From Emticicia oligotrophica DSM 17448 (lineage in GTDB: Bacteria; Bacteroidota; Bacteroidia; Cytophagales; Spirosomataceae): 64,000 nucleotides of DNA. How positions within the stretch are numbered: the first letter of the stretch is position 1; every line of letters begins with the position of its first letter. This document shows positions 50,746 through 51,827 of the stretch, piece by piece. The translations under genes were made by a program, and so were the position numbers. Location of the stretch: positions 4,340,001 through 4,404,000 of the forward strand of contig NC_018748.1 in NCBI RefSeq assembly GCF_000263195.1, written 5' to 3'. The notes beneath the pieces are model-generated. The model saw nothing but the letters and a program-made list of their open reading frames with translations, was not told the DNA's origin and ran no database searches.

Positions 50746-51210
50746 TTAAACCAGTGGGATTGGTCGATTAAACCTTTCTTCTAATGAAATGAATGTTTCA
50801 GTTCGGTTTATTCCGCCTACTTTCTGAATTTTATCGTGTAATACTTCTCGTAAATGCTGCGTATCTCTGCAAACAATTTTGACGAAAATACTATATTGCC
50901 CCGTTGTATAATTTATGCTCACAACTTCTGGAATATTCTCAAGTTGGTCGGCTACGGTATCATATAATTCACTCTTATCTAAATAAATTCCCAAAAAAGC
51001 ACTAATATCCCAGCCTAGTTTAATCGGGTCAACAATTAATTGAGAGCCTTTTACAATCCCCATTTGCTCCATTTTATTCATTCGAACGTGTACAGTTCCA
51101 CCTGAAACGAATATTTTTTCGCCAATGGCCGTGTAAGGCATTTTGGCATCTTGCATCAATAAAGATAAAATCTTTAAATCAGTTTTATCAATTTCGAAAT
51201 TTTTGTCCAT
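50746..51210 (-). CDS. Lrp/AsnC family transcriptional regulator
   Basis: 154 residues. Residues 5-60 are the winged helix (DLKILSLLMQDAKMPYTAIGEK, then SGGTVHVRMNKMEQMGI). Residues 70-145 are the RAM/ACT-like effector domain (GIYLDKSELYDTVADQL, GQYSIFVKIVCRD). It probably senses an amino acid. It reads away from the RNA gene at 51296-51612, with an AT-rich 85-bp region between them. Confidence 0.93.
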   Translation of the reverse strand: MDKNFEIDKTDLKILSLLMQDAKMPYTAIGEKIFVSGGTVHVRMNKMEQMGIVKGSQLIVDPIKLGWDISAFLGIYLDKSELYDTVADQLENIPEVVSINYTTGQYSIFVKIVCRDTQHLREVLHDKIQKVGGINRTETFISLEERFNRPIPLV

Positions 51211-51295
51211 TTTTGAAATTATAAATTATGAAATTTTTAATAAATATATATAATTATTGAATTAAATAAAAATTTTAAATATTTTTTATGAAATA

Positions 51296-51328
51296 TTTGC
51301 AATGAATATGAATTATGTATTACCTTTG
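51296..51328 (+). promoter_or_regulatory. Promoter of the tRNA-like RNA
   Basis: TTTG at 51296-51299, a 21-bp spacer and TACCTTTG at 51321-51328 form a full Bacteroidota promoter. The expected start is near 51335, giving a leader of about 55 nt before the tRNA-like domain. Confidence 0.65.
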
Positions 51329-51389
51329 TAACATCAAAGTAAAACAAGGCAGCATCAAACAAAGCTTAATTGAATCTTTTGATAGATAC

Positions 51390-51553
51390 TGTAAGGTGAT
51401 GAAATTGGCAGCCATGCCCTCCTGTCTCGAGGGTGGTGATTACGGGATAAACGCAGCATAATGCCGGACTTTCTTAGTCGACTGGGATTGACCACCAAAT
51501 TTGTACTGTGGCTAACTGCACCGTGGGCGGTTCGACTCCCCCTCTTACAGCCA
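51390..51553 (+). ncRNA. tRNA-like RNA with a ~90-nt insertion in the variable region
   Basis: 164 nt with a tRNA frame. Acceptor stem TGTAAGG (51390-51396) pairs with TCTTACA (51543-51549, last pair G-U), then discriminator G and encoded CCA (51551-51553). D arm: ATG/CAT stem around a GG-containing 11-nt loop (51399-51415). Anticodon arm: CCCTC/GAGGG (51417-51433) with loop CTGTCTC, i.e. GUC as in tRNA-Asp. T arm: GGCGG, loop TTCGACT, CCCCC (51526-51542), one C-C mismatch. Between anticodon and T arms lie 92 nt that can form further hairpins (GACT-TTCTT-AGTC at 51467-51479; ACTGTG/CACCGT at 51505-51524; TGGTG 51434-51438 with CACCA 51493-51497). It has its own promoter and terminator. It is too short for a group I intron and lacks the conserved tmRNA 5' domain. 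The family is unknown to me. Confidence 0.65.
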
Positions 51554-51562
51554 AAATTCCGA

Positions 51563-51612
51563 AAGTGTGAAAGAATATTTTACTAAATAAATTTCTTTCA
51601 TACTTTTTTTTT
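51563..51612 (+). terminator. Intrinsic terminator of the tRNA-like RNA
   Basis: AAGTGTGAAAGA pairs with TCTTTCATACTT (one G-U) and is followed by a run of nine T residues, 10 nt after the CCA end. Confidence 0.85.
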
Positions 51613-51674
51613 AAGTATTTTTGCTTAGTAAAAATATTATTTGGTTTTTAGTTTGTTGATGAAGTGTAATTGCG

Positions 51675-51711
51675 ACACGCAATCCCAAGTTGAGGTTTGC
51701 GTGTTTTTTTG
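51675..51711 (+). terminator. Second hairpin terminator
   Basis: ACACGCAA (51675-51682) pairs with TTGCGTGT (51697-51704) followed by seven T residues. It lies 63 bp after the first terminator and 116 bp before the DUF819 gene. A -7-like TATTTTTG at 51616-51623 could start a short transcript ending here; otherwise it is a backup terminator. Confidence 0.6.
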
Positions 51712-51827
51712 TTTTATGTAAATCCATATTTTACTATGTATAGTAAATCCCCAAAAATTGCTAACTCATAGTAAATAAAATTCTTATTTTTAATTTACCT
51801 TGCAATGCAATACAACCAATCAAATAG

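Follow-up and report, generated by a model that had tools for sequence, protein, structure and literature searches.

A conserved tRNA-like RNA of Bacteroidota, probably a dedicated carrier for RNA-dependent asparagine synthesis

In a 64,000-nt stretch of the Emticicia oligotrophica DSM 17448 genome, the whole of which is called the window here, positions 51390–51551 encode a member of an undescribed family of tRNA-like RNAs that is conserved across Bacteroidota. Guided by its conserved positions and by the gene content of the genomes that carry it, we propose that this RNA is probably a dedicated, non-decoding carrier for RNA-dependent asparagine synthesis. No description of such an RNA was found in the open-licence PMC literature, outside which most subscription papers fall, and to our knowledge there is no known case of an RNA reserved for carrying a metabolite precursor.

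The RNA spans 162 nt on the plus strand from U1 to C74 (G73 at 51550), as delimited by a covariance-model match (G000:C5:4391390-4391551, 168.3 bits), BLAST and covariation, and a BLAST search with the window copy found one copy in the E. oligotrophica genome. It has a complete tRNA frame, consisting of an acceptor stem of 7 bp (51390–51396 with 51543–51549), a D arm with a 3-bp stem, an anticodon arm with a 5-bp stem (51417–51433, plus strand; stem CCCTC/GAGGG, loop CTGTCTC with G34 U35 C36 U37 C38), an expanded variable arm, a T arm, G73 and C74, all of it read from the sequence and the alignment of relatives. A preliminary description of the locus had placed a tRNA frame of this make-up here and had likened the loop to the CTGTCAC of tRNA-Asp; both points hold, and the loop of the genome's own tRNA-Asp is indeed CTGTCAC, differing at position 37 only. 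The Asp-type anticodon arm is the main clue to function.

The insert reported between the anticodon and T arms is present as well, its size being 91 nt (51434–51524, plus strand). Its outer stem, GGTG/CACC (51435–51438 with 51519–51522), pairs in 100% of cells among 98 distinct sequences, with two-sided changes in three of its four pairs. It is followed by an internal loop, nearly invariant among relatives, in which GGGATAAA (51444–51451) faces CTAAC (51512–51516), and then by an inner helix and an apical domain. Three relatives (L041, L042 and L044) have just a short hairpin in this place, and the large insert is thus not essential to the fold. A 77-nt version lacking the variable arm, with the loop CTATCTC, occurs at L145:538-614 in the AsnA-bearing genome G046. 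The T arm (51525–51542, plus strand; loop TTCGACT), which is also defined by covariation, has five pairs and a bulged C at 51528 instead of the C–C mismatch first described; at that site the number of additional bases in relatives is 0, 1 or 2. The CCA end that had been noted is encoded in the window copy but is incidental, as CA follows C74 in 8 of 103 copies.

Upstream of the RNA, TTTG (51296–51299) and TACCTTTG (51321–51328) can be read by eye as a Bacteroidota-type promoter on the plus strand, following TTTG/TAnnTTTG, which we take to be the consensus in this phylum. The same promoter type stands upstream of many relatives, and transcription of the window copy would be expected to start near 51335. 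Downstream, an A-T-rich hairpin followed by T9 (51564–51612, plus strand; fold z -3.97) is a likely terminator; it does not have the same form in all relatives. Promoter and terminator had both been called visible; they can be pointed out in this way, but a generic promoter and terminator scan of 51200–51800, whose scope excludes Bacteroidota promoters and loops of more than 8 nt, returned nothing, including no sigma-70 site. Further downstream lie a second conserved element, TTTGGTTTTTAGTTTGTTGATGAAGTGTAA (51640–51669), and a second terminator-like hairpin (51674–51705; z -3.19), both on the plus strand. The 30-nt TTTGGTTTTTAGTTTGTTGATGAAGTGTAA is unique within the window. In family f1, and at two loci of two other families (L038 and L043), it recurs on the 3′ side of the RNA with hardly a change, in L038 directly after the RNA. 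It may trail the same transcript or be a small RNA in its own right.

Folded on its own, the window copy does no better than its shuffles (z +0.79; equalled or bettered by 155 of 200 shuffles). Lone-sequence folding is uninformative here; the proof of structure is comparative. The MAFFT alignment (29 sequences) has 96.8% of its cells paired and two-sided changes in 14 of the 29 pairs; none of 500 shuffles reached the alignment on four of five measures and 44 did on the fifth, and slid versions of the structure paired in at most 61.0% of cells. Fitting 98 distinct sequences to the covariance model gave 97.6% pairing and two-sided changes in 22 of the 29 pairs, with 0 of 500 shuffles matching it on all five measures and slid versions reaching at most 59.3%. 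A model-fitted alignment leans towards the structure, and the earlier MAFFT alignment agrees with it. A covariance model from relatives, tested stem by stem, had been proposed as a check on the RNA, and it yielded two-sided compensatory changes in all six helices.

ARAGORN and Rfam at gathering thresholds gave no match in the 64-kb window, and Rfam at E values up to 10 gave ten matches, all far under their gathering scores and none a tRNA. The 43 RF00005 places listed in the E. oligotrophica genome do not include the RNA; the 41 of these over the cut-off, including two tRNA-Asp genes, make the ordinary tRNA set complete, and the tRNA-like RNA is therefore extra. The earlier judgement was that no tmRNA, group I intron or tRNA class fits. 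For tmRNA, there is no Rfam tmRNA match in the window; a group I intron in a tRNA likewise has no Rfam match, and the insert lies in the variable arm, not the anticodon loop. A tRNA-Asn requires the anticodon GUU and a tRNA-Leu requires A73, and the family has C36 and G73, respectively, in 98 of 98 copies.

Relatives were first found by BLAST with the window copy in a draw at the level of the order Cytophagales, and a covariance model, R1, was built from 29 of them. With a strong match defined as E below 1e-14 (roughly 70–168 bits), R1 detects the RNA in 35 genomes of a 345-genome draw from the whole phylum and in 108 of the 148 genomes drawn from the order, counts from large draws that were filtered more strictly and may miss some divergent copies. 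Weaker R1 matches of about 83–88 nt resemble tRNA-Leu, with loops such as CTTAAAA. A loop-motif scan of named genomes returned at least 120 stretches; the 80 listed all match R1 and all bear Bacteroidota names, except one 'bacterium' and one Ignavibacteriales. Several loci hold tandem arrays of up to six copies. In family f19 (L061, L066 and L071), tandem copies differ in their variable-arm inserts, and in the L071 copies the 5′ strand of the variable arm is interrupted by a palindrome resembling CCCGATAGCTATCGGG, which looks like a mobile repeat.

The same loop motif is found in 69 viral contigs, and all 69, together with one 636-kb phage record, match R1 at no less than 72 bits. Searching 50,697 phage records with the window copy gave one match, and searching them with a viral copy gave none. 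At least one other tRNA is called on 56 of the 69 viral stretches, 8 have a call on the RNA itself only and 5 have none; ARAGORN calls the RNA tRNA-Asp in 13 of the 69, mostly short-armed versions, and a tmRNA is also called on 11. Phage copies often have an extra D-loop hairpin or an altered variable-arm internal loop, as at four viral loci (L271, L273, L283 and L294).

Conserved positions were counted on 98 distinct copies gathered by BLAST and the model without the loop motif and not on the motif-found set of 103, because loop-filtered counts are circular for positions 35–38. U1 (97 of 97), A72 (98 of 98), G2 (97 of 97) and C71 (98 of 98) are without exception, and the U1–A72 pair is present in all 97 copies with letters on both sides. 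G73, U35, C36 and C38 each occur in 98 of 98 copies, C74 is invariant, and G34 occurs in 93 of 98, being lost in family f12, genus g52 and two other genomes. U33 is kept in only 84 of 98 copies, and position 37 is U or C in all 98 and a purine in none. The motif-found set includes four copies of 103 with G37, all second copies of Mucilaginibacter, and one copy without U1. G10 is found in only 5 of 97 copies, most having A10, and acceptor pairs 4–7 vary freely with compensation, whereas pairs 1–3 do not.

In the part of PMC9976931 available to us, bacterial Asp identity is assigned to G73, G10, G34, U35, C36 and C38, with the second pair as a minor element, and amidation by GatCAB is described as dependent on U1–A72 and blocked by G1–C72 and U20a. 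Because the conserved positions match these lists, the RNA joins most Asp determinants to the GatCAB determinant: it has U1–A72 of a GatCAB substrate and G34, U35, C36, C38 and G73 of tRNA-Asp, and it lacks the decoding features of tRNA-Asp, U33 as a kept base and a purine at 37, as well as G1–C72 and G10. Judged by its bases, the anticodon loop would decode poorly.

Family f12 departs from this pattern: all nine copies seen there, from seven of the ten f12 genomes in the phylum and order draws, lack G34 and have the loops CTCTCTC, CTATCTC or CGATCTC. Both f12 genomes scored for these genes contain AsnA and are without GlnRS; giving up an AspRS determinant in the presence of a second asparagine source fits the carrier model. 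Four genomes do not fit simply: G217 and G327, the other two RNA-bearing genomes with AsnA, have an intact loop, and G374 and G495 have U34, with no asparagine synthetase found in G374. At L372, L370, L368, L067 and L375 (family f12 and genus g52), position 34 is A, C or U; CUC and UUC are Glu anticodons, and identity may have shifted in these groups.

As its determinants combine those for AspRS and GatCAB, the RNA should go with GatCAB, an expectation that was reasoned from the determinants and not recorded in advance. All 35 RNA-bearing genomes of the phylum draw were compared with RNA-lacking genomes of their class, 36 out of 53, with 17 (mostly of family f25) and the other classes left aside. 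GatB (PF02934), from which alone GatCAB was judged, is present in 35 of 35 RNA-bearing and in 2 of 36 RNA-lacking genomes (Fisher p 3e-18, ignoring kinship). Within families f22 and f23, the four RNA-lacking members tested (G059 and G177; G074 and G170) have no GatB and the RNA-bearing members have it, so the tie is not only one between distant groups. AsnRS is over the cut-off in all 71 genomes and GlnRS in 64, the exceptions being six RNA-bearing genomes (G046, G221, G327, G329, G337 and G395) and G098. With both AsnRS and GlnRS, 29 of the 35 RNA-bearing genomes thus leave GatCAB without an evident task in charging tRNA-Gln or tRNA-Asn.

It had been predicted in advance that RNA-bearing genomes would lack both AsnA (TIGR00669) and AsnB (TIGR01536). 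For TIGR01536 this failed: 29 of the 35 have such a protein over the cut-off, as do 62 of the 71 genomes together, mostly in frames of 570–690 aa. Three TIGR01536 proteins of RNA-bearing genomes scored 88 to 280 bits against the AsnB equivalog of NCBIfam, whose cut-off is 499, and a 509-aa frame of an RNA-lacking genome scored 886 bits. This equivalog, NF006949, is found in 0 of 35 RNA-bearing and 28 of 36 RNA-lacking genomes (p 8e-13), a comparison that is partly post hoc, the model having been chosen after the failure of TIGR01536. Applied unchanged to the order draw, NF006949 was found in 8 of 148 genomes, none of the 108 with the RNA and 8 of the 40 without it (p 2e-5), or 0 of 95 and 8 of 40 when 13 genomes already used are removed (p 3e-5). 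In the other 32 of those 40 genomes AsnB, the one synthetase scored in this draw, is missing as well; the 40 include several that are small or incomplete. AsnA occurs in 4 of 35 RNA-bearing and 4 of 36 RNA-lacking genomes of the first comparison, and either synthetase is present in 4 of 35 RNA-bearing and 30 of 36 RNA-lacking genomes (p 6e-10; all p values ignore kinship). A TIGR01536 paralog may make asparagine in some RNA-bearing genomes. Six of these have neither AsnA nor a TIGR01536 protein over the cut-off (G000, which is E. oligotrophica, G245, G014, G374, G205 and G323); in E. oligotrophica, AsnRS, GlnRS, GatB and a bacterial AspRS are all present. Six of the 36 RNA-lacking genomes (G074, G098, G102, G170, G209 and G109) have neither AsnA nor AsnB over the cut-off, G109 falling just short for AsnB at 491 of 499 bits, and two of the six carry GatB. 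A single open frame of 1117 aa in the RNA-lacking genome G209 (G209:C43:19343-21634) holds GatB and AsnRS-like matches, which suggests a fused aminoacyl-tRNA synthetase and GatB.

The RNA is also linked to an AsnC-like gene. In the window, a divergent gene on the minus strand (50746–51210) encodes a 154-aa regulator of the Lrp/AsnC family, whose best NCBIfam model is AsnC (NF008384; 160 bits, under the cut-off of 227, with the next model at 73 bits). AsnC was the best model for all ten neighbours tested, the nine others, from other families and the Ignavibacteriales contig, scoring 149–180 bits, all under the cut-off. Of 84 loci, among which some genomes are counted twice, 71 have a homologue no more than 1.5 kb away. 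Among the 80 listed named loci, 51 have one, and of the 53 genes concerned 51 lie upstream in the opposite orientation; the other 29 show the RNA without an AsnC-like gene on the stretch, some being cut by contig or stretch ends. No other neighbour recurs widely in these 80 loci (next clusters of 12, 12 and 11), and no AspRS or GatB gene was found on loci L045-L098 and L147-L226.

From these observations we infer charging, amidation, release, regulation and exclusion from the ribosome as follows. The RNA would be cut out and given CCA as the tRNAs of the cell are. Bacterial AspRS would then load aspartate, thanks to G34, U35, C36, C38, G73 and G2–C71, and GatCAB would convert the bound aspartate to asparagine, thanks to U1–A72. 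Released from the RNA, the asparagine would serve AsnRS and metabolism. Exclusion from translation would be needed because an Asn-RNA with the anticodon GUC would misread Asp codons, and the RNA could be kept off the ribosome by the pyrimidine at 37, the lack of a conserved U33, the size of the variable arm and a T stem that is bulged in some lineages. The divergent AsnC-like protein would tune the RNA to asparagine supply. We lean, by a small measure, towards regarding it as the first known RNA with the synthesis of an amino acid as its dedicated task, both chromosomal and phage-borne, with an AspRS and GatCAB identity, a body kept off the ribosome and a variable-arm domain that serves, perhaps, in release or feedback.

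The preliminary description had offered three readings. Of these, the evidence favours a chargeable RNA with a novel role, the charging itself being predicted; a decayed tRNA is unlikely, as conservation throughout Bacteroidota, compensatory changes, up to six tandem copies and phage copies contradict it; and a tRNA-derived regulator is kept as a rival. The strongest rival to the carrier, unlikely in our estimate, is a scaffold or activator of an asparagine transamidosome, in which the RNA holds AspRS and GatCAB while asparagine is made on tRNA-Asn by a non-discriminating AspRS. Scaffold tRNAs occur in the Thermus transamidosome complex. Such a role in the same complex would call for the same determinants and produce the same GatB and AsnB co-occurrence, the tRNA-Asn of E. 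oligotrophica has U1 and G73, and large transamidosomes are described in the part of PMC9976931 available to us. A pure scaffold, however, would have no need of G73 and C74, a strict C36 would be superfluous for an AspRS that accepts GUU as well, and multiple copies and phage carriage would rather suggest a carrier that is consumed or turned over. A regulatory mimic or decoy, binding AspRS, GatCAB or the AsnC-like protein and sensing or setting aspartate and asparagine levels but not itself serving as an intermediate, is improbable: the divergent AsnC-like gene of many loci and the conserved variable-arm internal loop, a possible binding site, speak for it, but it leaves the absence of AsnB from RNA-bearing genomes unexplained, and 29 of the 80 listed named loci have no AsnC-like gene on the stretch.

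The remaining two explanations are fainter still. The AsnB absence and the AsnC tie point to asparagine, and most copies keep GUC, which makes it very improbable that the RNA carries another aminoacyl group for use outside translation, such as Ser, or Glu or Gln where position 34 is C or U; this would accord with the class II shape, G73 and the CUC and UUC loops of f12 and g52. We give the least credence to an unusual elongator tRNA-Asp, or a tRNA that reads GAC and GAU as Asn. It has on its side the GUC anticodon, which U33 precedes in 84 of 98 copies, the 13 phage versions that ARAGORN calls tRNA-Asp and the many phage copies near other tRNAs; against these stand a pyrimidine 37 in all of the 98, a U33 that is not kept, the size of the variable arm, the inserts in the D loops of phage copies and the two ordinary tRNA-Asp genes of this genome.

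The amidation chemistry is already known; an RNA dedicated to carrying a metabolite precursor would be new. If the carrier role is correct, it would fill a gap in asparagine biosynthesis in a large part of Bacteroidota, explain why many of them keep GatCAB despite having AsnRS and GlnRS and how they obtain asparagine with no housekeeping synthetase, show that a tRNA body can move out of translation and still be chargeable, and explain its carriage by phages beside tRNAs. How asparagine arises in bacteria that have AsnRS, GlnRS and GatCAB while lacking an asparagine synthetase becomes a directly testable question. The part of PMC7311316 available to us names one Echinicola and one Pedobacter species among bacteria that make all 20 amino acids, and in the named-genome scan the RNA is present in both genera, an overlap at the genus level.

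The nearest known system is asparagine synthesis on tRNA-Asn by AspRS and GatCAB, as in Bdellovibrio, Deinococcus and Thermus; the same source, in the part available to us, counts 18 genera out of 547, some of them Bacteroidetes, that combine AsnRS, GlnRS and GatCAB with the lack of an asparagine synthetase, and proposes tRNA-Asn as their route (PMC4206432). The system proposed here would share with it the enzymes, the U1–A72 logic, the retention of GatCAB beside AsnRS and GlnRS and, probably in most genomes, the lack of a housekeeping asparagine synthetase; there, however, asparagine is formed on a decoding tRNA-Asn through a non-discriminating or second AspRS, whereas the proposed carrier would be an RNA of its own with an Asp anticodon. 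With tRNA-Asp the RNA has in common G73, G2–C71 and the loop except for position 37; it differs in U1–A72 for G1–C72, the pyrimidine at 37, a class II body with a large variable arm, mostly A10 and the D loop GGCAG. The 3-bp D stem, a similar D loop and a long variable arm recall the class II tRNA-Leu, but the RNA has G73 for A73, the Asp loop and a far larger variable arm. Like tmRNA it is tRNA-like and probably non-decoding, and tmRNA is called on 11 of the 69 phage stretches too; unlike tmRNA, it possesses an anticodon arm, and Rfam gave no tmRNA match to it. The staphylococcal tRNA-Gly for cell-wall bridges is a tRNA set aside from translation. Both would be tRNA-shaped RNAs for a purpose other than protein synthesis, but the staphylococcal RNA is a close variant of an ordinary tRNA and serves wall synthesis, whereas the RNA described here would serve the synthesis of an amino acid.
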